The position numbers and the translations under genes are program-made. This document shows positions 3,880 to 58,036 of a stretch of DNA of 60,288 nucleotides, piece by piece (position 1 is the stretch's first letter; every line of letters starts with the position of its first letter). The DNA comes from an uncultured Actinomycetes bacterium (GTDB lineage Bacteria; Actinomycetota; Acidimicrobiia; Acidimicrobiales; Microtrichaceae): positions 1 through 60,288 of the forward strand of contig CAINRS010000163.1 in NCBI GenBank assembly GCA_903852755.1, given 5' to 3'. A model generated the notes under the pieces. That model was not told the DNA's origin and did not search any database. It was given only the letters and a program-made list of their open reading frames with translations.

Positions 3880-3905
3880 CGCGTCCTCCGGTCGTCCCGT
3901 CCGAG

Positions 3906-3932
3906 TCAGAGAGTTCAGAGAGTTCAGAGAGT
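3906..3932 (-). repeat. Three perfect 9-bp direct repeats in the RCC1 leader
   Basis: The unit TCAGAGAGT (ACTCTCTGA on the transcribed strand) occurs three times in a row, 27-53 bases before the RCC1 ATG. It sits just inside the predicted transcript. It could be a protein-binding site or a slippage-prone leader; nothing in the sequence decides between these. Confidence 0.7.
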
Positions 3933-3959
3933 ATCGTCGGGATTCATCGGGGAGGTCGA
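3930..3959 (-). promoter_or_regulatory. Candidate sigma70-type promoter of the RCC1 gene
   Basis: On the minus strand TCGACC (3954-3959), an 18-base spacer and GATACT (3930-3935) resemble -35 and -10 elements. Transcription would start near 3923 and give a leader with the 9-bp repeats and a GGAGG site. Confidence 0.35.
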
Positions 3960-4006
3960 CGGATCCTCGCATCGTCCTCGGAGTTCGTCGTGATCAACGG
4001 TGGCTG

Positions 4007-34896: not shown

Positions 34897-37209
34897 TCAC
34901 ATCGCCAGCACGGACAACGGGGTCGCGGAGAACACGGTGGCGCCGTTACCGAGTTCCCCGGACTCGTTGACTCCCCAGCAGCGTGCCTGACCGCCGGCGA
35001 CCGTCACACACGTCGATGCCCGACCGGCGGTGATCCGGACGGCCCCCGACAGTCCCGTGACGCCGACGGGTGCAGGGCTCGGCGATCCGGCGAATCCTGC
35101 GCCGAGCTGACCGAAACCGTTGGCTCCCCAGCACCGGGCCTGGCCGTTGGAGAGCACGGCGCACGAGTGTGATCCGCCCGCTGCGATCTGCACGACCCCC
35201 GAGAGGCCGGTCACAGCGACCGGGGTCGAGCTCGACGCACCGACGCCGGAGTTGCCGAGCTGGCCGGAGAAGTTCGCTCCCCAGCACCGAACCTGTCCAC
35301 TGCCGAGGAGCGCGCACGTGTGGTCGTTGCCGGCTGCGATCTGGCTGACGCCAGAGAGTCCGGTCACGCCGACGGGCGACGTGAGGCCTCCGCCGGAGAT
35401 ACCGCTGCCCACCTGGCCGACGAAGTTGGCGCCCCAGCACCGCACCTGTGCGACGGCCAGGAGGGCGCAGGTGTGGGATCCACCGGCGACGATCTGGGTG
35501 GCGCCGGACAGGCCGTTCACCGCGACCGGGGAGACGGTCGGATCGAAGCTGACCTGGGCGTTCCCGAGTTGCCCCGCCCCGTTGGCTCCCCAGCACCGGG
35601 CCTGACCGCCGGCGACGAGCACACAGGAGTGGGAACCTCCTGCGGCGACACGGGTGGCGCCGGACAGGCCGGGAACGGCCACCGGTGCAGATGCATCGGT
35701 GACGGCTCCGTTGCCGAGCTGACCCGAGCCGTTCTCACCCCAGCACCGGGCCTGCCCCCCGGCGACCAGTGCGCAGGTGTGGTCACCGCCGGCACTGGCC
35801 TGTGTCGCTCCGGAGAGCCCGGTCGTTGCGACGAGTGTCGAGGTGGCCGAGCCGATCGATGGATCGCCCAGCTGACCGGAGGAGTTCTCGCCCCAGCAAC
35901 GCAGCTGACCGGCAGCCACCACGGCACACGAGTGGGCTCCCCCGGTCGTGAGGACACTGGCACCTGAGAGCCCGATCACGGCCACCGGGAGGGGCACCGG
36001 CGCTCCGCTCGAACTCGTCCCGAGCGCCCCGGAGCGGTTGCTGCCCCAACACCTGACCTGACCGCTGGTCAGCACGGCGCAGGTGTGGGTCGCACCGCCC
36101 TCGACCTGGGTGACGCCGGAGAGACCGGCAACTGCGATCAGAGCGGTCGTCGACGTCGAGAACCCGCCGCCGAGCTGACCGTCGAGGTTGTTCCCCCAGC
36201 AGCGGACCTGGCCGCTGGTGAGCACGGCACAGTTGTGGCCTCCGCCGGAGCTGACGGCGATGGAGCCCGAGAGGCCCGACACCCCGACCGGGGTCAGTTG
36301 GTCGCTCCCGGCGGCGCCCGTACCGAGTTGGGCCTCGAAGTTCCGACCCCAACACCTGCCCTGACCCGTCGAGAGCGTCGCACACGAGTGCTCGATGCCG
36401 ACCGAGATCGACGTCACCCCGGCGAGTCCAGTGACTGCAGTTGGGACGAGGCTCTCGGCCAGGGTGCCGTTGCCGAGTTGGCCGGTCAGGTTGCCACCCC
36501 AGCAGCGGACCTGGCCCGCAGTCAGTCGGGCGCAGGTGTGGACCTCCCCGGCGGCTACCTGGGCAACTCCGGTGAGTCCCGGGACGGCGACGGGGCTGGT
36601 CGAGGGGGCGTTGGTGCCGTTGCCCAGCTGACCGGAGAGGTTGCCACCCCAGCAGCGGACCTGACCGCCGGCGACGGTGGCGCAGGTGTGGGCGACCCCG
36701 CTGCTCAGGTGCGTCACCCCCGACAGTCCGGCGACTGCGACGGGGACCGTCGACGAGGTGACGCTGCCGCTGCCCAGCTGACCGGAGAGGTTCCCACCCC
36801 AGCAGCGGACCTGACCGCCGGCGACGACGGCGCAGGTGTGGGAATCGCCCGCACTGAGACGGGTGGCTCCGGACAGGCCCACGACGCCGACGGGCATCAG
36901 CGACGTCGTCGTGGTCCCGTCGCCGAGCTGTCCGGATGAGTTGTCGCCCCAGCAGCGGACCTGGCCGACCAGGAGCAGGGCGCAGGTGTGGCCGAGCCCA
37001 CTCGTGACCTGGCTCACCCCAGAGAGACTCGTCGACGCCGGGGTGAGTCCGGATGCTGCACGACTGGGTTCGACGCTGCGACGAGCCGCACCCAGCGAGG
37101 TCGTTCCGTCTGCACGGTCCGGTGGAGCGATGAGCACGATGAGGCTGACACACGTCAGGAGAGTTGCTGCGAGGGTCGTTCGTCGGATCGCTTGCATCCG
37201 TTCCACCAC
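34897..37209 (-). CDS. Secreted RCC1-repeat protein, 14 blades (second copy)
   Basis: 770 residues from GTG 37209, preceded by GAGGAG with 6 bases spacing; a signal peptide follows at once ([26 protein letters not shown]). ATG 37197 is an alternative. After a Ser/Thr-rich linker there are exactly 14 RCC1 blades with the same HTC...GQVRCWG core as the gene at 1.6 kb; the last ones vary (RASTC in blade 14). It ends with TPLSVLAM, again the closing strand without an anchor. It lies 100 bases downstream of the third 14-blade gene on the same strand, probably co-transcribed. Role unknown; an extracellular binding scaffold is likely. Confidence 0.9.
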
Positions 37210-37309
37210 GTTGCGCTCCTCGATCTCGCATGGCTTGCAGTCACCGCACCGTTCGTTCATGTGGGGCCGACCCGCCACAGCCGCTCCGGTGAGGTGGAGT
37301 TCCGATGCC

Positions 37310-39724
37310 TCAGATCGGGCCGATCACCGTCTGAGGGGTCGTGGAGAGCACGGTCGCCCCGTTGCCGAGCTGTCCGTTGGAGTTCGACCCCCAGCACCTG
37401 ACCTGCGAGCTACCCAGACGGGCGCAGGTGTGGTTCGTACCGGCCGCGAGTTGCGTCGCCCCGGACAACCCGGTCACGCCGACGGCGAGCGGTACCGGAG
37501 CGAAACCGATGGACCCATTGCCGATCTGACCGGAGGTGTTCGATCCCCAGCAGCGGACCTGACCGCCCGAGACGACGGCACACGCGTGGTCGCCCCCGGC
37601 GGCGACCTGCGTTGCGCCGGAGACGCCGATGACACCCAACGGAGTGGTCGACTCGGAGCCCGCCGTCGAGTCGTTCCCGAGCTGCCCGGAGAAGTTGGCG
37701 CCCCAGCAGCGCAACTGGCCGGCAGCCAACAACACACACGAGTGACTGTTCCCCGATGCGATCTGCGTCGCGCCGGTGAGGCCGGTGACCACCACGGGAA
37801 CGGCGGAGTTGCTGAGCGTCCCGTTGCCGAGCTGCCCAGAGTTGTTGTCACCCCAGCACCGGGCCTGTCCACTGGTGAGCAGGACGCACGTGTGCGACAC
37901 CCCGGCACTGATCTGGGTCGCGCCGGACAGTCCCGGCACGGGCACCGGCACTGCGGAGAATGCGCTGGTCGCCCCGTTCCCGAGCTGCCCGGAGCTGTTG
38001 TCGCCCCAGCAGCGGACCTGACCGCCGGCCACGACGGCGCAGGTGTGGGCGAACCCAGCGGCCAACCTGGTGGCTCCCGAGAGTCCCGGAACGCCGACGG
38101 GGGTGGAGCTCGACACGGTGGAGGATGGGTCGAGACCCAGCTGCCCCGAGGTGTTGAGGCCCCAGCAGCGGGCCTGCCCCCCGGAGACCAACGCGCACGT
38201 GTGGGTCCAACCGCTGGCGACTGCGGTGGCCCCCGACACGCCGCTGACGGCGACCGGCGCACTCGACCCAGAGGTGGAGCCATTGCCGAGCTGGCCAGAG
38301 GTGTTCCCTCCCCAGCAGCGGATCTGACCGGTCGTCAGGGTGCTGCAGGTGTGGGTGTTGCCGGCGGTGACCCCGGTCGATCCGGTGAACCCGCTGACTG
38401 CAACGGGGCTCGGGACTGGTGCGCCGGAGACCCCGATACCGAGCTGGCCGAAGGAGTTGTTCCCCCAGCACCGCACCTGTCCGCTGCCGATCACGGCGCA
38501 GGTGTGCAGCGAGCCGCCGTCGGTGGCGGTCACGCCGGAGAGCCCCGACACGGCAACCGGGAGCGCGGCCGCGACGGTCGTGCCGTTGCCCAGTTGACCG
38601 TCTGAGTTGTTGCCCCAGCACCGCATCTGGCCCCCGCTGACCACGGCGCAGGAGTGGCCCCGGTCGACGGTCAGGTTGGTGACCCCCGACAAGCCGGTCA
38701 CGGCGACGGGCACCGAACTGGCCTCGTCCACGGAGCCGTTGCCGAGTGCTCCGGAGGCGTTGCTTCCCCAGCAACGAACCTGTCCGCTGGTGAGTCGGGC
38801 ACAGGACAGGGCCTGACCCGCTCCGACCTGGACTGCGCCGGTCAGGCCCGACACGGCCACGATCCCCGGTCCCCCCGGCCCAAACGTCGCGTTGCCGAGT
38901 TGGCCCGATCCGTTCTGCCCCCAGCATCGGACCTGACCGGTCCCGAGCGCGGCACAGGTGTGCAGCGAACCAGCGGCGATGGACGTGACTCCTGAGAGTC
39001 CGGTGACTGCCACTGGCGTTGGCGAGTTGAACCCCGCTGCGGCATTGCCGAGTTGTCCCTCGCCGTTGAGGCCCCAGCACCGGACCTGACCACCGGTGAC
39101 GACGACGCAGGTGTGGTCGCCCGTGGCGGAGATCTGCGTCGCTCCCGACAGTCCGGCCACGGCGACTGGAGTGAACGAGGTGAAGCCCGCAGCGGCGTTG
39201 CCGAGCTGGCTGTTCGAGTTGTTGCCCCAGCAGCGGACCTGCCCGCCGGCGACGAGCGCGCACGTGTGGAAGGTCCCGGCGGTGATCTCCGTGGCTCCGG
39301 ACAGACCGGTCACCGCGACCGGGGTTGCCGCCACGATTCCGGCCGAGCCGTTCCCGAGTTGACCGGCGATGTTGGAACCCCAGCACCGGACCTGGCCGCC
39401 GGCGACGATGGCGCACGTGTGGGTGGCGCCGGCAGCGATGCGGGTGGCGCCGGTCAGGGTGGCGCCGGTCAGGGTGGCGCCGGTCAGGGTGGCGCCAGTC
39501 GGGGTGGCGCCGGTCAGGGTGGCGCCGGTCAGGGTGGCGCCGGTCAGGGTGGCGCCAGTCAGGGTGGCGCCAGTCAGGGCATCGAAATCTGCCGCCGAAC
39601 GGGTCGGTACTGCGCCGACGGGCCCGCTGGCTCCTGCCGGAACCGGTGCGACCAGGGCTGATGCCAGCACGAGCAGTCCGATCGAGAAGCCCGTGATCAC
39701 CGTCGCCGATCGACTGCGGGTCAT
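37310..39724 (-). CDS. Secreted RCC1-repeat protein, 14 blades, with LTGAT array
   Basis: 804 residues from ATG 39724 (CGAGGAG upstream). The signal peptide is SATVITGFSIGLLVLASALVAPVPAGA. Before the propeller is an array of nine five-residue units, LTGAT (one PTGAT), encoded by a 15-bp minisatellite. LTGAT is the turn that begins every blade (GLTGATQIAAG), so the array looks like expansion of that element. It also fits the A-x-L-x-G pentapeptide-repeat pattern. Exactly 14 blades follow, ending TPQTVIGPI. One blade lacks the His (QALSC). No anchor. Likely first gene of a two-gene RCC1 unit. Confidence 0.9.
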   Translation of the reverse strand: MTRSRSATVITGFSIGLLVLASALVAPVPAGASGPVGAVPTRSAADFDALTGATLTGATLTGATLTGATLTGATPTGATLTGATLTGATLTGATRIAAGATHTCAIVAGGQVRCWGSNIAGQLGNGSAGIVAATPVAVTGLSGATEITAGTFHTCALVAGGQVRCWGNNSNSQLGNAAAGFTSFTPVAVAGLSGATQISATGDHTCVVVTGGQVRCWGLNGEGQLGNAAAGFNSPTPVAVTGLSGVTSIAAGSLHTCAALGTGQVRCWGQNGSGQLGNATFGPGGPGIVAVSGLTGAVQVGAGQALSCARLTSGQVRCWGSNASGALGNGSVDEASSVPVAVTGLSGVTNLTVDRGHSCAVVSGGQMRCWGNNSDGQLGNGTTVAAALPVAVSGLSGVTATDGGSLHTCAVIGSGQVRCWGNNSFGQLGIGVSGAPVPSPVAVSGFTGSTGVTAGNTHTCSTLTTGQIRCWGGNTSGQLGNGSTSGSSAPVAVSGVSGATAVASGWTHTCALVSGGQARCWGLNTSGQLGLDPSSTVSSSTPVGVPGLSGATRLAAGFAHTCAVVAGGQVRCWGDNSSGQLGNGATSAFSAVPVPVPGLSGATQISAGVSHTCVLLTSGQARCWGDNNSGQLGNGTLSNSAVPVVVTGLTGATQIASGNSHSCVLLAAGQLRCWGANFSGQLGNDSTAGSESTTPLGVIGVSGATQVAAGGDHACAVVSGGQVRCWGSNTSGQIGNGSIGFAPVPLAVGVTGLSGATQLAAGTNHTCARLGSSQVRCWGSNSNGQLGNGATVLSTTPQTVIGPI
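39443..39577 (-). repeat. 15-bp minisatellite, nine copies
   Basis: Nine head-to-tail copies of GGTGGCGCCGGTCAG (plus-strand sense), with two variant positions, in the RCC1 gene at 37-39.7 kb. They encode the (LTGAT)n array on the minus strand. Copies are almost identical, so the array is young. Confidence 0.9.
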
Positions 39725-39793
39725 GTCCGCTCCTCGGGGAATCGCGCACGACTCGCGTGCTGGAACCTCACGATCACCACCGTACATTCCGGA

Positions 39794-39839
39794 TCGTCGG
39801 TGTCGGGATCGGCGTCTCGTCGGTGTCGGGATCGGCGTC
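39794..39839. repeat. Perfect 23-bp tandem duplication upstream of the RCC1 pair
   Basis: Two identical 23-base copies (39794-39816 and 39817-39839, beginning TCGTCGGTG and ending GGCGTC) lie between the VWA gene stop and the RCC1 promoter region. A minus-strand TACGGT (near 39778) could be the -10 box just downstream, so the repeats sit where an activator would bind. Confidence 0.8.
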
Positions 39840-39873
39840 ACTGCGTCGGGGAGCGTCGGTCGACGCTCGCGTC

Positions 39874-41760
39874 TCAGAAGTTGCTGATGACCGAGGTGAA
39901 CACCCGGTTGATCGTGGTGGCGTCCGTGGCCTGGTAGGCGCTGGCGTTGGAGGCCTCGGCGATCTGGCGGAGCTGGGTCGGGTCCGCGCCCTCGCCGTAG
40001 GCGACGGTGAAGATCCGGACCGGGCGAGAGTTCTCACCGTCGCTCGAGTCCTTGACGGAGCTGAGCAACTGCTGGAACTGCTGGGCGTCGTCGCTGCTGT
40101 TCCCGTCGTCGTTGACCCCGTCGGTCAGCAGCACCACCGCGTTGATGAGCGCCGGGTCGTAGCCCTGGAGCATCTGGTCGTACGAGGCCTGGGTGACCTC
40201 GTACAGCGGTGTGCCGTTGAGCGGGACGAGGGACTCGACGGCCCGCCGCAGCCGCTCCCGGTTGGCGCCGATCGGCTCGATCGGACTCAGGTCTCGGAAG
40301 TTCCCCGTCGCTCCGTCGGCCCCCGTGGTGAACACCCGCAGTCCCACCAGGTCGGAGTCCTTGAACTCGTCGAGCCCGTCGACGACGGCCTGCTTCGCCA
40401 GGTCGAGCTTGGTCGGTCCCGACGGGTCGGACGGGTCGGCCGGGTCACCCATCGACCCGGACACGTCGAGCACGAGCAGCACCCGGGCGCCCTTGCGCTG
40501 CTGGGCCCAGTTGGCGAGCAGCTGGTCCATGACCTCACCCGTCGGCGTCTCGAGCAGGGTCTGCGGCTGGTTGGGGTCGACGCCGTTGGCGGCCGACACC
40601 GGCTCGCCGAGCGGGACGTCGGGGTTGCCGGGTCGGAAGCCGGCGGCGAGCACCCGCTGCTGGTTCTCGGGACGCAGGACGAAGTCCTCGAACTGCTCGG
40701 CGGCCGCCCGCTGCTGCGGGGTCACCCAGTCGGCGTCCAGCACGTAGAGGGGGTTGTCGGAGTAGATCGTCCCCTCGGTCGGGTAGATCGCCACGAGCGG
40801 CGTCCGCGGTGGTCGGAGCTCCTCGCCCTGTGCCAGCTCACCGTCGGGGTCGCCGCGGTTGTAGTCGATCACCGACTTCTCCTCGACGGCGACGGCCGAG
40901 GCGTAGTTCAGCGCCGTGCCCCGCCGATCCGCCCGGAACCAGTTGTTCAGGAACGTCATGGTGATGTCGCCGTAGTGGACGACGGCCGACTCGATGTCGC
41001 TGCCGAACTGCTGCACCTGCGGGTTGGCGAGATCCTCGGTGGACAGGCCCGAGGTCTTGCCGGTCGCCGCGTAGTTCTGGGCGATGAGCGCCGACAGGCC
41101 CGAGGTCGAGAAGTTCGGGTTGGTCTTGCCGAGCTTGAACGGTCCCCACTCGGGGTGGCCGGAGTCGGCCCAGCCGCCCGGTGACTTCGACAGCCGCAGG
41201 ATGTCGGCCCAGCCGATCGGGGTGTCGGGCCACCCGAGCGCCCGGGCCATCGGCTCCGGCATGGCGATCACGAGCGGGGTGAGCATGAACGAGGTCGGCT
41301 GGTCCGAGACCATGGGCGGGCGACCCTCCGCGGCCAGCCGCACGTTCAGGATCTGGCCCCACGAGCTCGCAGCCGGCGACCAGATCGTCGGCTCCGGGCC
41401 GTACTCGTCGACGTTCCAGCCCTCGGCCAGCGCCGTGGTCGCCGCACCTGAGGAGACCTTCTCGACCTGGACGTCGATGCAGGTCCCGTCGACCGTCGCA
41501 CCCGACTCGTTGAACGAGCGCGCCAGGTCGCCGAGGAGCTGGATCTTCTCCGACGACACCGCCACGTCGACCGGGATGCACTCCGTGCGACGCTCCGCAC
41601 CGCCCGAGGCGGTCCCGTCGCCGGTGCCGCCGCTGCACGCCGCCGCGAGCACCGACACGGTGAGCGCCACCACGGTGAGGACGGTCGCCCGGACCGAGGT
41701 CGGCCGGGTCTCGGAGGTGGCGCAGTTCCCGGTCCTGCCGGTCATCCTGCGGCAGGTCAT
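39874..41760 (-). CDS. Lipoprotein with solute-binding and von Willebrand A domains
   Basis: 628 residues. ATG 41760 overlaps the upstream stop (ATGA). A lipobox LAAACSGG near residue 55 follows a hydrophobic stretch. Residues about 75-400 look like a periplasmic-binding-protein fold (VDVAVSSEKIQLLGDLARSFNESG, LGWPDTPIGWADILRL, TSGLSALIAQNYAATG). Residues about 425-628 are a VWA domain with the complete MIDAS motif DVSGSMGD, a Thr in LVGLRVFTTG and Asp in VVLLTDGVND. Such fusions occur in actinobacteria beside Ter-type stress proteins. It is the last gene of a three-gene coupled operon with another solute-binding-like protein and an AAA+ ATPase. Confidence 0.85.
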   Translation of the reverse strand: MTCRRMTGRTGNCATSETRPTSVRATVLTVVALTVSVLAAACSGGTGDGTASGGAERRTECIPVDVAVSSEKIQLLGDLARSFNESGATVDGTCIDVQVEKVSSGAATTALAEGWNVDEYGPEPTIWSPAASSWGQILNVRLAAEGRPPMVSDQPTSFMLTPLVIAMPEPMARALGWPDTPIGWADILRLSKSPGGWADSGHPEWGPFKLGKTNPNFSTSGLSALIAQNYAATGKTSGLSTEDLANPQVQQFGSDIESAVVHYGDITMTFLNNWFRADRRGTALNYASAVAVEEKSVIDYNRGDPDGELAQGEELRPPRTPLVAIYPTEGTIYSDNPLYVLDADWVTPQQRAAAEQFEDFVLRPENQQRVLAAGFRPGNPDVPLGEPVSAANGVDPNQPQTLLETPTGEVMDQLLANWAQQRKGARVLLVLDVSGSMGDPADPSDPSGPTKLDLAKQAVVDGLDEFKDSDLVGLRVFTTGADGATGNFRDLSPIEPIGANRERLRRAVESLVPLNGTPLYEVTQASYDQMLQGYDPALINAVVLLTDGVNDDGNSSDDAQQFQQLLSSVKDSSDGENSRPVRIFTVAYGEGADPTQLRQIAEASNASAYQATDATTINRVFTSVISNF

Positions 41761-48216: not shown

Positions 48217-51200
48217 ATGATGGGACGCGTCGGTCGTTGGGTGGTGTTGGGGATCGTCCTGGTCGTGTGGTTGGCGGCTGGTCGGGCGGCCGGAGCCCTC
48301 GAACCTGTCGCCGCCCCGGCGCAGACCGGTGGTCCTACGGTCACGGCGGTCGCTCCGCCGACGGGGTCGACGAGCGGCGGCACGATCGTCACGATCACCG
48401 GCACCGGCTTCACGGGTGCCACCTCGGTCCGGTTCGGTTCCGTGGGTGCGGCCAGTTTCTCGGTGGTCTCGCCGACCTCCATCACGGCGACGACTCCTGC
48501 AGGCATCGGTCCCGTGGGCGTGAGCGTGGTCACCCCGGGTGGCACCTCGGCACCGTCGCCTGCTGCGACCTTCACCTACATCTCGACGTCGGCCATCACC
48601 GGGGCGACGCTCGTGGACGGTGGCGGGTTCCACTCGTGCGCGGTGGTCGCCGGTGGCCAGGTCAGGTGTTGGGGCAACAACGTGTCGGGGCAGCTCGGGA
48701 ACGGCAGCACGACCGATTCGCCGACCCCAGTCGTCGTTCCGGGGATCACCGGTGCGACCCAGGTTGCAGCCGGGGGCTTCCACACCTGCGTGCTCGTCGC
48801 CGGCGGGCAGGCACGCTGCTGGGGTGACAACGATTCAGGACAGCTCGGGAACGGCTCCACGGAGGACTCGCCGATCCCTGTTGCGGTGCCGGGCATCAGC
48901 GGAGCCACCCTGCTGAGCGCAGGTCTCTCGCACACGTGCGTCGTGGTCGCTGGCGGCCAGGTGCGTTGCTGGGGAGCGGACGGGTCCGGTCAGCTCGGTG
49001 ACGGAGCAGCAGGCGCCGACTCGACGTCACCGGTCGCAGTGGCCGGTCTGTCCGGGGTGACGCAGATCTCTGCAGGCTCCTGGCACACCTGTGCGCTGGT
49101 CTCCGGCGGCCAGGCCCGCTGCTGGGGCAACAACGTCCGGCGGCAGCTCGGGAACGGCTCCACGGTCAACTCATCGGCACCCGTGGTGGTGTCCGGGCTG
49201 ACCGGTGCCACGCAGCTCGGTGTCGGCGGTGACCACGCGTGTGCCGTTGTCGCCGGCGGTCAGGTGCGCTGCTGGGGAGCCAACTCGGCGGGCCAGCTCG
49301 GGAACGGATCCACCACTCCGGCCCCGGCACTCGTGGCGGTCACCGGGTTGACCGGGGCGACTCGTGTGGTCGCGGACTTCGACCACACCTGCGCCCTGGT
49401 GGCCGGTGGCCAGGCACGCTGCTGGGGAGCGAACGGGTTCGGCCAGCTGGGGAACGGCTCCACCACCAGCTCGGCGACCCTGGTGCCGGTGAGCGGCCTG
49501 TCCGGTTCGACCAGCGCCGGTGCGGGCGGTGCACACACCTGCGCCGTGGTCGCAGGTGGGGAGGTTCGCTGCTGGGGGCGCAACACTTCCGGACAGCTCG
49601 GGAACGGCGCGACAGCTGGTTCTGCGCTGTTCGTGAGGGTCACCGCCGCCTCGGCGGTTCCTGCCGTCGGGGCGCTGAGCGCCACGGGCGGGCCTGCTGC
49701 AGGCGGCACCGTCGTGACGGTCTCCGGGGTCAACCTGACCGGGGCCACCGCCGTGCGGTTCGGCTCGGCTGCGTCGCCGAGCTTCACCGTCCTCTCGGCC
49801 TCCAGGGTCGTCGCCGTCACCCCGCCCGGGACGGGCGTCGTCGACGTGGTCGTGGAGACACCTGGTGGGGTCTCGGCGGTGTCTGGCGCGACCAAGTTCG
49901 ACTTCGTCCCCCAGCCCGCGGTGGCGTCGCTGTCGGTGACCTCGGGTCCGTCGACCGGCGGCACCGTCGTGACGCTGACGGGAACCAACCTCGGCGGGGC
50001 GACGGGTGTGCGGTTCGGAGCTGCGCCTGCAGCATCGTTCACGGTCAACTCACCGACGCAGGTGAGCGCCACCGCGCCCCCCGGGTCGGGCAAGGTGGGC
50101 GTTGCAGTCGTGACCCGGGGAGGGACCTCCGCCGTCGGTGCTGCCAACCAGTTCACCTACACGGCACCAGTCCCGACCGTCACCTCGATCAGCCCGGCCT
50201 CGGGTCCAGCGGGTGGCGGGACGGTCGTGACGCTGACCGGCACCAACCTGACCGGCACGTCGGCGGTGCGGTTCGGGACGGTGGACGCCACTGCGTTCGT
50301 GGTGAACTCGCCGAGTCAGGTCACGGCGACCAGTCCGGTGGGTGTCGCGGGTCCGGTCGGAGTGACGGTCACCACGCCGGGTGGAGCGAGTGCCGTCAGC
50401 GCACCCGCCACGTTCACCTACCTGGCTCCTGCCGCGCTGACCGGTGGCACCCAGGTCGCAGCGGGATCGAGTCACTCGTGTCTGGTGGTGGGTGGCGGCC
50501 AGGTGCGGTGCTGGGGTGGCAACGACTCCGGTCAGCTCGGCAACGGCACGTTCGTCGGGAGCCCGACGCCGGTCGCAGTGGTCGGTCTGTCGGGGGTGAC
50601 CAGCCTCGCCGTGAGCGGTGGCTACTCGTCCGGGCACTCCTGCGCCGTGGTGGCCGGTGGTCAGGTCAGGTGCTGGGGTGACAACTCCGCGGGTCAGCTC
50701 GGTGACGGCTCCACCACGGCGAAGCGTTCCACCATCTTCGCCGTGCCGGGCCTCACCGGTGCCGCCGAGGTCGTCGCCGGCAGCGAGCACAGCTGTGCCC
50801 GCCTGAGCGCCGGGCAGGTGCGGTGCTGGGGCGGCAACGACGCGGGTCAGCTCGGGAACGGCACGACGACCGGGTCCTCGGTGCCGGTGACCGTCTCCGG
50901 CCTGACCGGAGTGACTGCCCTGTCGGCCGGACCCGCCCACACGTGTGCGGTGGTGGCAGGCGGCGAGGTGCGCTGTTGGGGCGCCAACTTCTCCGGACAG
51001 CTCGGAAACGGCAGCACGACCGGTTCGTCGAGCCCGGTGGCGGTCACGGGTCTGACCGGAGCGACGCGCGTCGCCGTCGGTGAAGCGCACTCCTGCGCCC
51101 TGCTCTCCGGTGGCACCGCCGTGTGCTGGGGGAGCAACTTCCTGGGCTCGCTCGGGAACGGAACCACGCTCGACTCGCTGACACCGGTCGCAGTCAGCGG

Positions 51201-54200
51201 CCTCGCCGGGGCGACCGACCTGAGCGCTGGACTCCGGCACACGTGTGCCCTGGTGGCCGGTGGGCAGGGCAGGTGTTGGGGTTCGACGTTCACCGGCCAG
51301 CTCGGGGACGGGTCGCCGACCGGGTTGTTCTTCGGGTTCGTCCCGACACCGGTGGCGGTGTCGGGACTGTCGGGGGCGACCAAGGTCTCCGCCGGCTCGA
51401 TCCACAGCTGCGCCGTGGTCGCCGGCGGCCAGGTCAGGTGCTGGGGCGACAACGCGTCCGGTCAGCTGGGCAACGGGACCACGGCCACCTCGTCGATTCC
51501 GGTGGTGGTCTCCGGAGCCACCGCCCGTCCGGTCGTGTCCGTGGTGGCGCCACCGACCGGTCCCACCGCCGGCGGTACCGCAGTGGTCATCTCCGGTGGC
51601 AACCTCGCTGGCGCGACGGCGGTCCGCTTCGGTCCGCTCGTGGCGACGTCGTTCACGGTCAACTCCCCGACCCAGATCACGGCGACCACCCCGGCCGGGG
51701 CGGCCGGGAGCGTGGATGTCTCGGTGGTGACCCCGGGTGGGACGTCTGCGGTCGACGGCGCAACCAGGTTCACCTACGTGGGGCTCCCTCCGGTGACCGC
51801 CGTGTCGGGGTCGATCGACTCGGGGTCGGAGCACACGTGTCGCACCACTCCGGCTGCGACGGTGGAGTGCTGGGGCGCTGATGACCTTGGCCAGCTCGGC
51901 GACGGTGGTGAGCAGGCGTCCCCGGTCGGCTCGTCTTTCTCGTTCGAGTCCGCCGCAGGTGGGAGCGCCACTCCTGTGCCCGTGCTCGGGGTGACGGGTG
52001 CCCAGTGGGTGACCGCCGGGTCCCAGCACAGCTGTGCGGTCCTGTCGGGTGGGACGGTCAAGTGCTGGGGTGACAACAGCGCCGGTCAACTCGGCGACGG
52101 GCTCGAGGTCCCCACGGGTAGCTCGTTCTCGTTCGCCCAGTCCGTCGGCCAGCCCCAGTCGGTTCCGGTCAACGTGGTCGGCCTCTCCGGGGCCGTTGCG
52201 GTGAGCGCCGGACGGTCGCACACCTGCGCACTCCTGTCGGGCGGTGGCGTGGTGTGCTGGGGCGACAACAGCAGTGGTCAGCTCGGTGACGGGACCTTCA
52301 CCACGCGTAGTTCCCCCGTGCCCGTGCCGGGTGTCACCGGCGCCGTCTCGGTCAGCGCCGGTGGCGGGCACACCTGCGCCGTCCTGCTCGACGGGACGGC
52401 CAGCTGCTGGGGTGCCAACTCCTCGTGGCAGTCGGCGCCGGGCTCGACGACCTACTACTTCTCGACACCGCAACCGGTCGCAGTTCCAGGTGTGCAGTTC
52501 ATCGAGGTCGCTGCGGGGGACGACTTCTCGTGTGCCCGGACCTCGACCGGGACCGTCTTCTGCTGGGGTCAGGGTGGGTTCGGTCAGCGCGGCGACGGGA
52601 CGGCGGTCTCGCCGTCGTTCGAGGGCGGGTCGCTCGGTGGCGCGGACCTCGCTCCGGCCGACGGTTTCGCACCCGGAGCGAACCGGAGTGGCCCGGTCGC
52701 GGCGCTCGGTGTCACGGGTGCAGTGGGCATCGACGCCGGTGAGGCCCACGCGTGTGTGGTCGTGACCTCCGGCGTCACACGCTGCTGGGGCGCCAACTTC
52801 GGGGGCCAGCTGGGGGGCACCCCGGCGGTGGCATCGTCCGTGGCCGTGACGGTGACCGTGCCGGGTTCGGATGGCGCCACAGAGGTCGCGCCGGGAGGGC
52901 GCCACACCTGCGCCAGGACCGCTCCGACGTCGTTCACCTGCTGGGGCGACAACGGCTCCGGTCAGCTCGGCAACGGGGTTGCACGCCCGACGGTGACGTC
53001 GGTGTCGCCCAGCAGCGGGACGGTTCGGGGCGGCACGACCCTCACGATCACGGGCACCGGGTTCGTGGACGTCCGTTCCGTCTCCCTGGGCGGCTCCTTC
53101 GGCGGTCGGCCGGCCACCGACTTTCGGGTGATGTCGTCGACCGAGATCGCCGTGGTCGTCCCTCCCTACGTGGACGACTCGTTCTTCTTCGGGTTCTTCA
53201 GCACGTCGATTGCGCAGTCGCTGGTCGTGGAGACCGAGCGGGGCTCGGTCGTGGCCGGAACGTTCACCTACCTCCCCGATCCGCCTCCGACCGTGACGTC
53301 GATCGCGCCGGTGCAGGGGCTCACCTCGGGTGGCGCCACCCTCACGATCACGGGGACCAACCTGGCCGGGGCCCGTGTCGGTTTCGGTTGCAGTGCGACC
53401 TCCTCCTTCTGCTCCAGTGTCGTCAGTGCGGCGGTGGATGCGACCGGCACCGTGCTCACGGCCACCGTGCCCGCTGGTTCCGGAAGCGTCGCCGTCCAGG
53501 TGTCCACCCCCGGGAACGTTCCGGTGTTCGCAGGGACCTACCAGTACGTGCTCCCTGTCGCTCCGGCGTCGGTGCTGACGGCCAGTGGATCGCACTCGTG
53601 CATCGTCGTGACCGGGGGCCAGGTCCGCTGCTGGGGTGACAACTCCTCGGGTCAGCTCGGCACCCCGAGCTTCATCCAGCTCCGGAGTGCCGTTCCGATC
53701 GGGGTGAGCGGCCTGTCCGGTGCCACGGCCGCCGCTGCGGGCCGGGACCACACGTGCACGGTGGTGGCAGGTGGTCAGGTGCGCTGCTGGGGCCAGAACT
53801 TCTCCGGCCAGCTGGGTGACGGCTCGACGACCAGCAGTTCGACCCCCGTTGCGGTGCCCGGGTTGACCGGAGCAACCCAGGTCGCAGCCGGTGCCGCCCA
53901 CACCTGTGTGCTGGTCGCCGGTGGCCAGGCCCGGTGCTGGGGGTCCAACTCCTCCGGCCAGTTGGGCAACGGGACGACCACGTCCAGCTCGACACCAGTG
54001 GTGGTGTCCGGTCTGTCGGGTGCTACGGCCATCGCAGCGGGTACCGACCACACCTGCGCAGTGGTGGCCGGTGGTCAGGTGCGGTGCTGGGGAGCGAACT
54101 TCTCCGGCCAGTTGGGGAACGGGACGACCACGTCCAGCACGACACCGGTGGCGGTGTCGGGACTGTCGGGGGCGACCAGGGTCTCCGCCGGGTCCGCCCA

Positions 54201-55686
54201 CACCAGCGCACTCGTGGCCGGGGGTCAGGTCCGCTGCTGGGGGGAGAACTTCTCGGGTCAGCTCGGCAACGGCACCACGACCCAGAGCTCGACCGCAGTG
54301 GCGGTGTCGGGCGTGTCGGGTGCCACGGCCGTCACTGTGGGAGACAACCACACGTGCGTCGTGGTCGCCGGTGGTCAGGTGCGATGCTGGGGAGACAACT
54401 CCTCTGGTGAGTTGGGCAACGGCACGACGGCGAGCAGTTCGACGGCGGTGGCAGTGTCGGGCTTGTCGGGCGCCACGGCCGTCGCCGCAGGAGAGAACCA
54501 CACCTGTGTGCTCGTCGCCGGCGGTCAGGTGCGGTGCTGGGGGGGCAACGACGCCGGGCAGCTGGGCAACGGCTCCGTGGCGGGTCGCTCGGGTGTCCCC
54601 GTCGGCGTGGCGGGCCTCACGACCGTGACCCAGGCGTCCGCTGGTTCCCAGCACACGTGTGGGCTCGTGGCCGGTGGACAGGTGCGCTGCTGGGGGGAGA
54701 ACTCCTCTGGTCAGCTGGGCAACGGCTCGACGACGAACAGTTCGACACCGGTGGCGGTCAGCGCGTTGTCGGGTGCGACCCGGATCAGCGCAGGAAGCGA
54801 ACACTCGTGCGCCGTGGTGGCCGGTGGTCAGGTGCGCTGCTGGGGGGAGAACTTCTCCGGTGAGTTGGGCAACGGCTCGACGACGAGCAGTTCGACACCG
54901 GTGCCGGTGACCGGGTTGTCCGGGACCACACTCATCTCCGCCGGAGGACCCGGGTTCGGATTCGGTTTCTCGTGTGCCGTCATCGGCGGTGGACAGGTGC
55001 GCTGCTGGGGAGCGAACTCCTCCGGCCAGTTGGGCAACGGAACGACCACCAACAGTTCGGTTCCCACAGCGGTGAGCGGTCTGACTGGTGTCACGTCGAT
55101 CGCCGCAGGGGCCCGGCACACGTGCGTCGTCGTGACGGGCGGCCAGGTCCGCTGCTGGGGCGACAACTCCGACGGGCAGCTCGGCGACGGAGCGGGGAGC
55201 GTCAGCACGACCCCGGTCGCCGTGGGCGGACTGACAGGTGCGGTGCAGGTCAGCGCCGGGTACTCCCACTCCTGCGCCCTGCTCTCCAGCGGTGAGGTGC
55301 GGTGCTGGGGGGCGAACTTCTTCGGTGCGCTCGGTGGAGCTGGTGGATCAGCTGGCTCCTCGGTCCCGGTCGTGGTCCCCGGGATCACGGGCGCCACGGG
55401 GATCTCGTCCGGTGACTACCACACGTGTGTCACCGTCGGCGCCGGTGCGGTCCGTTGCTGGGGAGGCGGCTACTCGGGCGGCCAGCTCGGGAACGGGACC
55501 GTCGACCAGTTCTCGTTCGGCCCGGTCGACGTCGTCGGCCTGTCCGGTGTGACCGCGCTCGACTCAGGAGGCGGACACAGCTGTGCGGTGGTGTCCGGCC
55601 AGCCACGGTGCTGGGGCGAGAACCTCCGAGGCCAGTTGGGCTTCCCGCCGTTCAGCACCACTCCGGTCGCCGTCCTCTCCACGTGA
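48217..55686 (+). CDS. Giant secreted RCC1/IPT protein, 35 blades in five propellers
   Basis: 2,489 residues with a signal peptide (WVVLGIVLVVWLAAGRAAGA). GAGG lies 7 bases before ATG 48217; a second ATG follows directly. Order, with approximate residues: IPT/TIG 40-122; 7 RCC1 blades 124-480; three IPT 481-737; 7 blades 738-1103; IPT 1104-1189; 7 blades 1190-1590; two IPT 1592-1780; 14 blades 1782-2489. IPT domains show P-x-V-x-x-[IVL]-x-P-x-x-G-x-x-x-G-G-T and end TFTY. Blades 15-21 (third propeller) are the most diverged, lacking GGQ and with long insertions; the last 14 are nearly uniform. Almost every blade keeps both Cys; one late blade has HTS in place of HTC. It ends in TPVAVLST with no anchor. 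Function unknown; an adhesive or binding fibre is plausible. Confidence 0.9.
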   Translation: MMGRVGRWVVLGIVLVVWLAAGRAAGALEPVAAPAQTGGPTVTAVAPPTGSTSGGTIVTITGTGFTGATSVRFGSVGAASFSVVSPTSITATTPAGIGPVGVSVVTPGGTSAPSPAATFTYISTSAITGATLVDGGGFHSCAVVAGGQVRCWGNNVSGQLGNGSTTDSPTPVVVPGITGATQVAAGGFHTCVLVAGGQARCWGDNDSGQLGNGSTEDSPIPVAVPGISGATLLSAGLSHTCVVVAGGQVRCWGADGSGQLGDGAAGADSTSPVAVAGLSGVTQISAGSWHTCALVSGGQARCWGNNVRRQLGNGSTVNSSAPVVVSGLTGATQLGVGGDHACAVVAGGQVRCWGANSAGQLGNGSTTPAPALVAVTGLTGATRVVADFDHTCALVAGGQARCWGANGFGQLGNGSTTSSATLVPVSGLSGSTSAGAGGAHTCAVVAGGEVRCWGRNTSGQLGNGATAGSALFVRVTAASAVPAVGALSATGGPAAGGTVVTVSGVNLTGATAVRFGSAASPSFTVLSASRVVAVTPPGTGVVDVVVETPGGVSAVSGATKFDFVPQPAVASLSVTSGPSTGGTVVTLTGTNLGGATGVRFGAAPAASFTVNSPTQVSATAPPGSGKVGVAVVTRGGTSAVGAANQFTYTAPVPTVTSISPASGPAGGGTVVTLTGTNLTGTSAVRFGTVDATAFVVNSPSQVTATSPVGVAGPVGVTVTTPGGASAVSAPATFTYLAPAALTGGTQVAAGSSHSCLVVGGGQVRCWGGNDSGQLGNGTFVGSPTPVAVVGLSGVTSLAVSGGYSSGHSCAVVAGGQVRCWGDNSAGQLGDGSTTAKRSTIFAVPGLTGAAEVVAGSEHSCARLSAGQVRCWGGNDAGQLGNGTTTGSSVPVTVSGLTGVTALSAGPAHTCAVVAGGEVRCWGANFSGQLGNGSTTGSSSPVAVTGLTGATRVAVGEAHSCALLSGGTAVCWGSNFLGSLGNGTTLDSLTPVAVSGLAGATDLSAGLRHTCALVAGGQGRCWGSTFTGQLGDGSPTGLFFGFVPTPVAVSGLSGATKVSAGSIHSCAVVAGGQVRCWGDNASGQLGNGTTATSSIPVVVSGATARPVVSVVAPPTGPTAGGTAVVISGGNLAGATAVRFGPLVATSFTVNSPTQITATTPAGAAGSVDVSVVTPGGTSAVDGATRFTYVGLPPVTAVSGSIDSGSEHTCRTTPAATVECWGADDLGQLGDGGEQASPVGSSFSFESAAGGSATPVPVLGVTGAQWVTAGSQHSCAVLSGGTVKCWGDNSAGQLGDGLEVPTGSSFSFAQSVGQPQSVPVNVVGLSGAVAVSAGRSHTCALLSGGGVVCWGDNSSGQLGDGTFTTRSSPVPVPGVTGAVSVSAGGGHTCAVLLDGTASCWGANSSWQSAPGSTTYYFSTPQPVAVPGVQFIEVAAGDDFSCARTSTGTVFCWGQGGFGQRGDGTAVSPSFEGGSLGGADLAPADGFAPGANRSGPVAALGVTGAVGIDAGEAHACVVVTSGVTRCWGANFGGQLGGTPAVASSVAVTVTVPGSDGATEVAPGGRHTCARTAPTSFTCWGDNGSGQLGNGVARPTVTSVSPSSGTVRGGTTLTITGTGFVDVRSVSLGGSFGGRPATDFRVMSSTEIAVVVPPYVDDSFFFGFFSTSIAQSLVVETERGSVVAGTFTYLPDPPPTVTSIAPVQGLTSGGATLTITGTNLAGARVGFGCSATSSFCSSVVSAAVDATGTVLTATVPAGSGSVAVQVSTPGNVPVFAGTYQYVLPVAPASVLTASGSHSCIVVTGGQVRCWGDNSSGQLGTPSFIQLRSAVPIGVSGLSGATAAAAGRDHTCTVVAGGQVRCWGQNFSGQLGDGSTTSSSTPVAVPGLTGATQVAAGAAHTCVLVAGGQARCWGSNSSGQLGNGTTTSSSTPVVVSGLSGATAIAAGTDHTCAVVAGGQVRCWGANFSGQLGNGTTTSSTTPVAVSGLSGATRVSAGSAHTSALVAGGQVRCWGENFSGQLGNGTTTQSSTAVAVSGVSGATAVTVGDNHTCVVVAGGQVRCWGDNSSGELGNGTTASSSTAVAVSGLSGATAVAAGENHTCVLVAGGQVRCWGGNDAGQLGNGSVAGRSGVPVGVAGLTTVTQASAGSQHTCGLVAGGQVRCWGENSSGQLGNGSTTNSSTPVAVSALSGATRISAGSEHSCAVVAGGQVRCWGENFSGELGNGSTTSSSTPVPVTGLSGTTLISAGGPGFGFGFSCAVIGGGQVRCWGANSSGQLGNGTTTNSSVPTAVSGLTGVTSIAAGARHTCVVVTGGQVRCWGDNSDGQLGDGAGSVSTTPVAVGGLTGAVQVSAGYSHSCALLSSGEVRCWGANFFGALGGAGGSAGSSVPVVVPGITGATGISSGDYHTCVTVGAGAVRCWGGGYSGGQLGNGTVDQFSFGPVDVVGLSGVTALDSGGGHSCAVVSGQPRCWGENLRGQLGFPPFSTTPVAVLST
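53820..54910 (+). repeat. Highly similar 150-bp blades in the last propellers
   Basis: Within the giant gene successive 150-base units share long near-identical runs, for example around 53942/54092 and 54693/54843 (ACTTCTCCGG... and GGGCAACGGCTCGACGACGA type segments). The similarity is much higher than among blades of the third propeller, so this part expanded or was homogenised recently. Confidence 0.7.
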
Positions 55687-55751: not shown

Positions 55752-56726
55752 GTGGGTGGGAGTCCCGGAAGGAGCGGCCGACGGACCCGGTGGGTGCTGC
55801 TCGGCGTGGCGCTGCTGGTCCCGGTGGTCGCCGGGGTCGGTGTCGCCGTGCTCTGGAGTCGGGTGGGGGTGGTGAACGTCCCGGCAGTCGTCGCCCCGGT
55901 TCCCGCTGACGTCGTCGCCCTGGTCGGGAGCGACCGCCGCAGCGGTGTGCCGTCCGGGCAGGAGGCCATCTTCGGCAACGTCGACCTGGTGCCGGGAGAG
56001 CGTGCCGACACCGTCGTGCTCGTGTCGACGCTGCCGGACGGGACCCTCCGGGCGCTCGGGCTCCCGCGGGACATGCTCGTGCCGAACGAACGTGGCGAGC
56101 CGGAACGGCTGTCCGTGCGCTACGAACGGGCGGGTCCGGCCGGTCTGGTCCAGGGGGTGTGCCAAGGTGTCGGGGTGCCGGTCCGCACGGTGGTGGTCGT
56201 CCGGTTCGAGACGGTGCGGGCGCTCGTCGACGCAGCCGGTGGGGTCGAGATCGACAACCGGGCCGCCCTGCGGGACCGAACCCTCGGCCTCGAACTGTCT
56301 GCCGGTCAGGTCCGGCTCGACGGTCCGACGGCGTTGTCCTACCTGCGGTCACGTACCCTCGAGACCCGACGCGACGGAGTCTGGGAGCCTGACCCGGTCC
56401 GCAGCGCCGCTCGGTCCGAGCGCGCCGCCCTGGTCGCCTCCCGGGTGGCCCGGGAGCTCCTCGCGCCCTCGTCGGTGCTCCGGGGGATCCGGGCGCTCTG
56501 GGACGTCGCTCCGTCGGTGGTGGTGAGTTCGGGGACGGGTCCCATCGACCTCTACCGACTCGGTGCATCGCTGCGGGGAACCGCGGGCGCAGTAGTGGCC
56601 GACCTTCCGCTCGAGGCCCGACCCGGACCCCTTCCGGCACTGGTGCCCGGCCCCGCCACCGAGCCTGCGCTCACCGAGTTCCTGGGTGCACGCCCGTCGT
56701 GCAGCCTCGCAGAGGCACCCTCGTGA
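55752..56726 (+). CDS. LytR-CpsA-Psr (LCP) family cell-wall transferase
   Basis: About 324 residues from GTG 55752; GTG 55683, sharing GTGA with the upstream stop, would add 23 Ser/Arg/Pro-rich residues. One N-terminal membrane helix (WVLLGVALLVPVVAGVGVAVLW) precedes the extracellular LCP domain: LVGSDRRSG, GERADTVVLVSTLPDGTLRALGLPRDML (the Asp/Arg pair that binds the lipid pyrophosphate), AAGGVEIDNRAALRD, LDGPTALSYLRSRTLE. LCP enzymes attach wall teichoic acids, arabinogalactan or glycans to peptidoglycan, and some attach glycans to proteins. It follows the giant propeller gene directly and its stop overlaps the next lipoprotein by GTGA. Confidence 0.85.
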   Translation: MGGSPGRSGRRTRWVLLGVALLVPVVAGVGVAVLWSRVGVVNVPAVVAPVPADVVALVGSDRRSGVPSGQEAIFGNVDLVPGERADTVVLVSTLPDGTLRALGLPRDMLVPNERGEPERLSVRYERAGPAGLVQGVCQGVGVPVRTVVVVRFETVRALVDAAGGVEIDNRAALRDRTLGLELSAGQVRLDGPTALSYLRSRTLETRRDGVWEPDPVRSAARSERAALVASRVARELLAPSSVLRGIRALWDVAPSVVVSSGTGPIDLYRLGASLRGTAGAVVADLPLEARPGPLPALVPGPATEPALTEFLGARPSCSLAEAPS

Positions 56727-58036
56727 ACGGGCGAGTGCCCTGGTCCCGGGTCGTGATCGGTGTCCTCCTGCTCGGCGGCTCGATGACGGCGTGCGCCGAC
56801 GATCCCCCCGGTGCGGCCGCCGAGGAACCGGGGGGTGGGGCGGCCGCCCCGACGATGTCCGTAGGCGTCCCGCTGGACCCGGACGTGGCGGCGCTGCTCG
56901 AGGTCGACGACCCGGAGTCGGTCCCGGGTGTCGGCCCGGCCGGGTGGCCGTTCGCCTCCGTCGGTCCGCCTGCTGGTCACCCCCTGGAACGCATCGACCG
57001 TGACGTGGGGATCAGTGTCGAACTCGGGGACGGGTCCAGGCTGTGGCTCTTCGGGGACACTGCGGAACGCGAGCCCGGGGGAGGCCTCCGGTACTTCGAG
57101 GTCGGCACGGCCGCGTGGGCGCCTGCCGACGACCCCACCGTGACCAGGGACGGGTCCGTCGGGGGGCTCCCGGTGCCGCTGGTGGCCGAACCGTCGGGGC
57201 GTCCACCCTGCCCACCGCAGGCACCGAGGAGCGGAGTGTGGCCGCTCGCTGCCGTCACCGACCCGGGTGATCCGAACCGGGTGCTCGTCTGGTCGGGCAA
57301 CATCTGCCTCGGGTCGTCCACCGTCCTCGAGCCGCAGGGGATCTCCCTCGGGGAGTGGCGCCACGATCCGGCTCGTCCACCGGTGGACCGGCCGGTGCAA
57401 CTCCGGGTCCTCAATCCGCTCCTCTTCCCGTCCCAGGACGAACTGGGCGCCGTGATCGGAGTCGGGGATGGTCGACATCTCGTCGCCATGGGGTGTCGGC
57501 CGCCGCAGATCGAGGGGTGGGCGGGTCCCGGCTCGGCCGGCCCGGCTCCGGCCGACGGCTCCTGTGTGCTCCGGCGTGTCGACGTGGCGGACGTGGCGGA
57601 CTCAGCGGCCTACGAGCCGTGGACAGGCGCACAGTGGGGCGGCGGCCCCCCATCCCCGGTCGACCTGCCGAGGCAGTCCACCTGGGTCTCCTACTTCGCT
57701 GCGCCGGTCGGTCCGTTCTCCCTCGCCCCCGATCCATCCGGGGAGGGTGTGGTGATGGTCTACTCGCCGTGGCCGGGCTACGTTCCGGTCGCGGCCGTCC
57801 GCTGGGCTCCGGAGGTGACCGGCCCGTGGAGCCCACCGGCACCGCTGCTGCTCGAGGGGTGCCTCCCGATCACGGACCCCCGCCGTTCGTGCTACGCAGC
57901 CAACGCCCAGCCCGACTTCTCGGTTCCCGGTGAGCTCGGGATCGGCTACTACGACCGTGAGGTCAGTACTCCACCTCAACGGGGAGCGTTCCTGGTCGGC
58001 AGGGTTCCGTTCCGACCTCCCGGCGCGAACCGCTAG
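56723..58036 (+). CDS. Secreted lipoprotein, possible DUF4185-like propeller
   Basis: 437 residues from GTG 56723, coupled to the LCP gene. Signal and lipobox: VVIGVLLLGGSMTAC, then an acidic Pro/Gly/Ala linker. The body has recurring beta-strand blocks with Trp/Asp/Gly turns (GDGSRLWLFGDTAE, VWPLAAVTDPGDPNRVLVWSGN, QSTWVSYFAAPVGPFSLAPDPSG, VAAVRWAPEVTGPWSPPAPLL, YAANAQPDFSVPGELGIGYYDRE). This pattern resembles DUF4185 and sialidase-like five-bladed propellers; the assignment is by pattern only. It probably works outside the membrane with the LCP enzyme. Confidence 0.7.
   Translation: MNGRVPWSRVVIGVLLLGGSMTACADDPPGAAAEEPGGGAAAPTMSVGVPLDPDVAALLEVDDPESVPGVGPAGWPFASVGPPAGHPLERIDRDVGISVELGDGSRLWLFGDTAEREPGGGLRYFEVGTAAWAPADDPTVTRDGSVGGLPVPLVAEPSGRPPCPPQAPRSGVWPLAAVTDPGDPNRVLVWSGNICLGSSTVLEPQGISLGEWRHDPARPPVDRPVQLRVLNPLLFPSQDELGAVIGVGDGRHLVAMGCRPPQIEGWAGPGSAGPAPADGSCVLRRVDVADVADSAAYEPWTGAQWGGGPPSPVDLPRQSTWVSYFAAPVGPFSLAPDPSGEGVVMVYSPWPGYVPVAAVRWAPEVTGPWSPPAPLLLEGCLPITDPRRSCYAANAQPDFSVPGELGIGYYDREVSTPPQRGAFLVGRVPFRPPGANR

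Follow-up and report, generated by a model that had tools for sequence, protein, structure and literature searches.

The RCC1/BLIPII group is the third most populated group of highly repetitive propellers according to Pereira and Lupas (2022, PMC9218822). The same source reports independent amplification in close homologues of such propellers (WRAP), and a passage in it describes BLIP-II as a secreted bacterial RCC1-like propeller. In plants, CRINKLY4 carries a C(x~10)CWG motif, which a passage of PMC4617170 proposes to form a stabilising disulfide in each repeat; the CRINKLY4/ACR4 ectodomain is presented there as an extracellular RCC1-type propeller. LCP enzymes attach glycopolymers, and one of them, LcpA of Actinomyces oris, glycosylates a surface protein, GspA, which is cell wall-anchored (as outlined in PMC6381275). 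The characterised DUF4185 members named in a passage of PMC10115798 are endo-D-arabinanases. Searches of one open library of papers returned no paper on RCC1 combined with IPT/TIG domains in Actinobacteria, none on extracellular RCC1 repeats with cutinase in actinobacteria, and none on RCC1 in freshwater Acidimicrobiia.

We analysed a contiguous stretch of 60,288 nucleotides (the window) from the genome of a freshwater actinobacterium (3.16 Mb in 168 contigs), which contains one very long gene for an RCC1–IPT protein. Three RCC1 families scored above their Pfam cut-offs in this protein (PF13540, 766 bits; PF00415, 676 bits; PF25390, 1020 bits), and IPT/TIG (PF01833) matched seven stretches, every one above cut-off. 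The TIG matches were grouped 1+3+1+2 along the chain, and the 35 CWG-anchored blades formed runs of 7, 7, 7 and 14; the blade HMM gave one spurious eighth match after the third propeller, P3. These positions confirm the domain order IPT1-7-IPT3-7-IPT1-7-IPT2-14 that a sequence-only reading had proposed, and the layout, in which propellers alternate with IPT domains, supports the bead-and-linker architecture described there. The features are listed in Table 1. Among all 19-residue stretches of the protein, the N-terminal signal was the most hydrophobic (2.07) and the runner-up, near residue 470 (469-489), reached 1.54, so that the protein is probably exported. The same reading had also noted the lack of an anchor, and this stands: a scan for sortase-anchor features found no LPxTG, no hydrophobic tail at the C-terminus and no recognisable anchor, and no hydrophobic 19-mer after the signal exceeded 1.54. 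In the NCBIfam scan, the repeat domain NF058597 was the only one named. Lysine is very scarce in the protein, with 5 in 2,489 residues.

Table 1. Features of the RCC1–IPT locus in the window and, in the last row, in related genomes (coordinates of the respective loci).
Feature	Position	Strand	Evidence and remarks
RCC1–IPT protein gene	48217–55686	+	2,489 codons = 2,489 aa, ATG start, intact frame
Predicted Sec-type signal sequence (MMGRVGRWVVLGIVLVVWLAAGRAAGA|LEP), residues 1-27	48217..48297	+	hydropathy peak at residues 9-27; cleavage site by eye
IPT/TIG 1	48334..48579	+	TIG 54.6 bits
Propeller A, 7 RCC1 blades, residues 129-481	48601..49659	+	CWG anchors and blade HMM
IPT/TIG 2, 3, 4	49663..50421	+	TIG at 49663-49902, 49915-50160, 50173-50421
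Propeller B, 7 blades, residues 741-1104	50437..51528	+	CWG anchors and blade HMM
IPT/TIG 5	51529..51777	+	TIG 44.9 bits; alignable in L124 and L125
Propeller P3, residues 1193-1589, 7 divergent blades whose loops carry Ser/Phe/Gly insertions	51793..52983	+	L124/L125 matches, positional blade match, weak model
IPT/TIG 6 and 7, conserved pair after P3	52987..53547	+	TIG at 52987-53190 (profile 1-61 of 84) and 53287-53547; alignment A1
Propeller D1, blades 22-28, residues 1781-2138	53557..54630	+	AlphaFold model of D, UVR8 match
Propeller D2, blades 29-35, residues 2139-2489, C-terminal end of protein	54631..55683	+	28 further strands in D model
Next gene, for a glycopolymer transferase of the LCP (LytR-CpsA-Psr) family	55752..56726	+	PF03816 64.8 bits, TIGR00350 75.1 bits; start by eye
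DUF4185-like protein gene	56699..58036	+	PF13810 37.7 bits; true start probably later
Further RCC1 proteins, 14 blades each, signal-like starts	1621-3972, 34897-37278, 37310-39841	-	
Exported-looking small proteins upstream of LCP	L163 1933-2481, L164 3920-4372, L166 1452-2330, L165 9117-10289		

Propeller P3 differs from the other propellers of the chain. The GGQ that stands two residues ahead of CWG was found in 6/7 blades of A, 4/7 of B and 11/14 of D (the C-terminal 14-blade block, D1 and D2), and in none of the seven P3 blades, which carry long insertions rich in Ser, Phe and Gly; the divergence noted from the sequence was thus borne out. Mean blade identity was 0.602 in A, 0.599 in B, 0.663 in D1, 0.554 in D2 and 0.431 in P3; these values were calculated over HMM columns, not with the pipeline behind the 60% internal-symmetry criterion of Pereira and Lupas. 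Among the matches listed, P3 had two strong relatives, L125 (C185) and L124 (C198), both in the same-genus genome G004. L125 matched P3 with 60% identity over almost the whole query, and L124 with 63% over two thirds, with a second piece at 52%. The remaining listed matches were at the generic level (54% over half of the query and lower), and, among the matches listed, only 2 of the 6 same-genus genomes had a P3 with an identity of at least 60%. The family of 33 genomes held no further genome with a P3 of this strength (51% over half of the query in G019 is generic), and the other 297 genomes of the order, sampled without G004 and with at most six candidates scored per genome, gave no P3 match at E ≤ 1e-45.

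The blades of P3 were conserved by position. When the seven blades were compared between genes, the best match lay at the same blade position for 7/7 blades against L124 and 6/7 against L125, and for 5/7 between L124 and L125; mean identities on the diagonal were 0.61, 0.60 and 0.61 versus 0.45, 0.42 and 0.44 off the diagonal (permutation p 0.0003 each), and an offset scan gave one clear peak, at offset 0. The loop residues GSxFSF and PxGSxxSF were invariant across the focal protein, L124 and L125, including G135, S136, F138, S139, F140, P196, G198, S199, S202 and F203 of alignment A1. In contrast to P3, the blades of focal D found their best match at their own position only once in 14 against each of L124 and L125 (p 0.69 and 0.30). 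A blade shift that masks a correspondence in D was considered and rejected, since no offset stood out (0.51-0.65 against L125 and L124). Between L124 and L125 themselves, D also gave 1/14 best matches, yet the diagonal was slightly higher (0.631 versus 0.611, p 0.0026), and some positional memory is therefore left there. Focal D compared with one array of genome G001 gave p 0.003, again with 1/14 best matches.

The same distinction was seen in a tree of 77 blades, in which 95% support was reached at only 3 of 74 inner branches and single branches are weak, blades being about 50 residues long. The expectation that P3 blades stand apart in a phylogeny of single blades held overall, with 5 changes of the P3 label versus a mean of 18.8 after shuffling, but not for three blades (focal 6, L124 6 and 7), which were placed among the others. 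P3 blades grouped by position (8 changes by position versus 13 by gene), whereas D blades grouped by gene (6 versus 36 by position). Blades of A, B and D of the focal protein were intermixed; as judged from these blades, A and B appear to go with D and to form no class of their own. A specific binding role of P3 would fit its positional identity and its conserved, unusual loops, and the positional conservation can alternatively reflect structural constraint.

The order IPT–P3–IPT–IPT–14 blades is repeated in L124 and L125, and the identity of the IPT–P3–IPT–IPT core to the window is 55% and 57%, respectively. L125 is syntenic with the window gene, because genes for an LCP protein and a DUF4185-like protein follow it, and is thus its positional counterpart; P3 and D are therefore not being contrasted across random paralogues. 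L125 ends after its blades, as the window gene does; it starts at a contig edge, and an A and B region, if present, would lie beyond that contig. At its start L124 (5860-14319) has a lipobox-like signal plus two IPT domains; it lacks A and B and carries a cutinase domain toward its end, so that the setting of P3 varies. Other RCC1 arrays are likewise joined to enzymes, namely an S8 peptidase (L023, 7 blades) and a cutinase-family domain (L131 8722-11973, in G004). These fusions raise the possibility of an exported esterase system in which the scaffolds are the accessory half: an enzyme of the cutinase type would be carried by or docked on them, and the focal copy would have none of its own. 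The continuation of the common IPT-P3-IPT-IPT-14-blade core into a cutinase domain in L124 favours this explanation, as do another open reading frame of G004 that consists of a cutinase and four blades, and the peptidase of L023. Against this, the syntenic L125 ends after its blades, which indicates that the enzyme-free form is common to this locus, and we regard the explanation as unlikely.

Both cysteines of a C-x9-CWG pair were present in 428 of 448 blades from 37 arrays; this set comprised the arrays with 7 or 14 HMM matches in which all anchors were found, which left out the P3 propellers of the focal protein and L125 (8 matches each). The focal protein has the pair in 34/35 blades, the exception being the HTSALV blade, as in the CRINKLY4-type trait of a Cys pair with CWG in each blade, and its 71 cysteines are accounted for by 35 and 34 in the blades and two in IPT7 (by reading). 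In the model of D, cysteines 122 and 132 lie on neighbouring strands (120-125 and 129-134) and face each other as judged by strand register, not by coordinates. The presence of both cysteines in nearly all blades suggests one disulfide per blade, by analogy with the plant proposal. The CRINKLY4/ACR4 ectodomain (PMC4617170), with its similar Cys-CWG motif, was also a structural match (Z 26-27). It differs in that it is a single plant receptor propeller with a kinase, whereas here blades with C-x9-CWG occur in bacterial multi-propeller chains.

Structure prediction in pieces, proposed with the sequence-only reading, covered D and P3. The AlphaFold model of the 14 blades of D (28 sequences) had a mean pLDDT of 92, a pTM of 0.63 and 56 strands, i.e., 14 × 4. 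D1 was superposed on the closed seven-bladed UVR8 with Z 56.9 and 1.6 Å over 357 residues; this match covers the first half of D, and the relative placement of the two halves is unsure. The model of P3 was weak (3 sequences, pLDDT 62, many loops below 50), and within this weak model the best structural match was again UVR8, with a TM by target of up to 0.85. The focal protein has both the blade sequence (E 3e-44 to UVR8) and the closed seven-bladed fold in common with UVR8, HERC2 and RCC1. Unlike these, it is apparently exported and has a Cys pair in almost every blade, five propellers per chain and IPT linkers.

The genes that follow the RCC1–IPT gene hint at a cell-wall glycan context. The DUF4185-like protein scored slightly below the cut-off of PF13810, the DUF4185/GH183 endo-D-arabinanase family (37.7 versus 39.5 bits, E 1.8e-9), and no solved structure matched it at E 0.001. 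The corresponding genes downstream of L125 match those of the window (LCP 57-59%, DUF4185-like 67-68%), and a search for the LCP gene over 153 loci returned the window's own copies and L125; the linkage of LCP to the RCC1 version is thus found in two genomes. At a threshold of 1e-30, LCP was matched in 8 of the 33 family genomes, and a DUF4185-like gene adjoins it in five of these eight (G000, G004, G015, G019 and G032). DUF4185-like genes are more widespread than LCP (17/33 family genomes). In the four other genomes with a readable gene upstream of LCP (G005, G019, G028 and G032), this gene codes for a small protein that looks exported by eye, one of them with a PKD domain. Pfam TIG gave no match at E ≤ 1 in the four proteins scanned, so that any resemblance to IPT is a matter of eye. 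The slot upstream of LCP therefore seems to hold an exported protein, here the giant one. The upstream VWA-CoxE gene was also considered as a conserved partner and was rejected: of 79 VWA loci, many of them short, only L109, the window's own, had the blade pattern in the DNA fetched.

Given the LCP and DUF4185-like context, we propose that the protein is a binding scaffold which stays at the cell surface and acts in a setting of cell-wall glycan. In the reading that we prefer, and to which we give about an even chance, the focal protein is an exported cell-surface binding scaffold with P3 as its specific module, located at the cell-wall glycan or glycosylated into it. The protein would leave the cell by the Sec route and fold outside it; its five RCC1-type propellers of seven blades each (A, B, P3, D1 and D2) would be connected by IPT domains, and a single disulfide would staple almost every blade. 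P3, whose seven blades are individually conserved, would be the specific module, with a ligand site shaped by its conserved Ser/Phe/Gly loops. The remaining propellers, A, B and D, would represent a common, interchangeable propeller type, as found in many apparently exported paralogues, and D would most likely supply a general, low-specificity surface or retention. The scaffold would then work at the cell-wall glycan, or be glycosylated into it, as the linkage to LCP and DUF4185-like genes suggests. The pair LcpA-GspA of A. oris, in which an LCP enzyme glycosylates a surface protein (in the account of PMC6381275), is comparable in that the focal LCP gene stands beside an apparently exported protein. 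GspA is anchored in the cell wall, whereas the focal protein has no sortase signal and is at most a candidate for glycosylation.

An alternative is a secreted decoy or inhibitor, in which a propeller would tightly bind a foreign enzyme, by analogy with BLIP-II. BLIP-II, itself a secreted RCC1-like propeller (PMC9218822, in the passage cited above), is a relative of D in sequence (E 1e-11) and fold (Z 31), and the P3 loops are distinct and conserved. However, BLIP-II is a single small inhibitor without IPT domains, whereas five propellers and seven IPT linkers give the focal protein the size of a scaffold, and the adjoining LCP and DUF4185-like genes offer no obvious target. We consider this explanation improbable.

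The focal protein is a member of a large RCC1 family of the genus, whose proteins are apparently exported. The focal genome holds at least 150 RCC1_2 matches (the best 150 of 271 candidates), and its fetched stretches contained 20 open reading frames that carry at least two CWG motifs, several of them truncated by contig ends. In the family of 33 genomes, the focal genome had at least 86 strong matches (E ≤ 1e-9), G003 at least 47 and G004 at least 46, and none of the others had more than 23. Loci of G001-G005 were drawn from among the matches listed, and their gene sets are incomplete. A signal-like start was assigned by a crude hydropathy rule to 38 of the 42 open reading frames with a closed 5' end, with at least one wrong pick (L132). 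After exclusion of 9 of 61 arrays at contig edges, 40 of the 52 arrays of the genus loci had a multiple of seven blades; compared with an expectation of 1/7, the binomial p is ~5e-24, which is descriptive, as the arrays are related. The 12 arrays off this rule had 12, 6, 5, 4 or 3 blades. Blades were counted as HMM matches with a WG anchor, and plain matches would raise L128 from 6 to 7, L147 from 12 to 13 and L149 from 12 to 14. Fourteen blades were present in 27 arrays, 26 of which end the protein within 10 residues, the exception being L124 with 1,230 further residues including the cutinase domain. D is thus a standard unit of the family. The N-terminal partners of the arrays vary and include an S8 peptidase (L023) and carboxypeptidase-regulatory and TIG domains (L019). 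Positional conservation beyond P3 was seen in two adjoining genes common to G001, G003 and G004, which are frozen arrays with 12–14/14 positional matches and 64–78% identity; among pairs of arrays of equal length, 12/396 had p < 0.001.

The sequence-only reading had suggested that the uniform last 14 blades of a fibre act as a stalk or were added recently. The D blades are indeed fairly uniform (amino-acid identity 0.607), follow P3 and end in no anchor. At four-fold codons with matching first two bases, however, third-base identity within arrays was 0.414 for D, 0.420 for P3, 0.419 for A and 0.444 for B, compared with a between-gene background in the same genome of 0.391 (sd 0.033, maximum 0.546, 130 pairs). 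The synonymous sites of D are close to this background, and D therefore does not have the look of a young array. At the amino-acid level, its identity is barely above that between genes (0.561), which would fit one constrained blade type throughout the genome. The longest exact direct repeat within the focal gene is 39 bp, and among the arrays read no form is more common than a 14-blade unit at the C-terminus. A recently re-amplified appearance belongs instead to the G004 copies, whose D arrays have third-base identities of 0.634 (L125) and 0.558 (L124), as if re-amplified at the DNA level; this would explain the lost blade correspondence. Recent addition of D in the focal gene is rejected on the synonymous sites and the exact repeats, and a recent stalk, very improbable overall, is for this gene already largely refuted. 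A genome in 168 contigs with several RCC1 genes at contig ends might point to misassembled repeats or to gene decay. Either is extremely unlikely in view of the short internal direct repeats, the intact frame with all four arrays in multiples of seven and the recurrence of the domain order in L124 and L125, the last applying to the chain from the IPT domain before P3 onward and not to the A and B part.

Highly repetitive propellers are amplified from single blades, and the 14-blade arrays of L124 and L125 suggest similar independent amplification. The focal protein differs from such propellers in that one of its propellers is position-specific, its neighbours look exchangeable and its D is not recent in DNA. 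Within the searches made, it seems to belong with the known highly repetitive propellers, including RCC1/BLIPII, and a fixed P3 within an otherwise exchangeable chain seems unusual. In a more detailed version of the scaffold reading, a recognition propeller that is frozen and specific by position would ride on interchangeable propellers, stapled by disulfides and re-amplified in relatives, the whole being held on the cell by a glycopolymer attached by LCP and trimmed by the DUF4185-like protein, not by a sortase or membrane anchor; taken with all its parts, this version is quite unlikely. One chain and its syntenic relative allow position-specific selection on P3 to be told apart from propellers that look exchangeable, and turn a repetitive protein of unknown function into a testable candidate binding module on a scaffold. 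The 7- and 14-blade arrays of the genus offer a natural series for propeller amplification and subsequent fixation, and the cysteine pattern suggests that bacteria and plants may stabilise extracellular RCC1 propellers in the same way.

Several further features of the family were observed. The two RCC1 genes at 34-40 kb of the window adjoin each other, and the N-terminal part of 37313-40033 (minus strand) contains TLTGA repeats before the first blade, resembling a short pentapeptide repeat. A repeat of ~115 residues around 'PCRxVDTR', in about three copies, stands ahead of the blades in L126, L127, L130, L132, L134, L135, L137, L142, L144, L151 and others; Pfam scans of four of these proteins (L126, L130, L134 and L142) listed no family for this repeat. 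Two arrays apparently were amplified recently, as judged from their DNA: L031 (6163-8271), with 12 blades in a break of the rule of seven, a third-base identity of 0.67 and exact repeats of up to 51 bp, and L027 (5903-9466), with 21 blades, a third-base identity of 0.60 and exact repeats of up to 100 bp.
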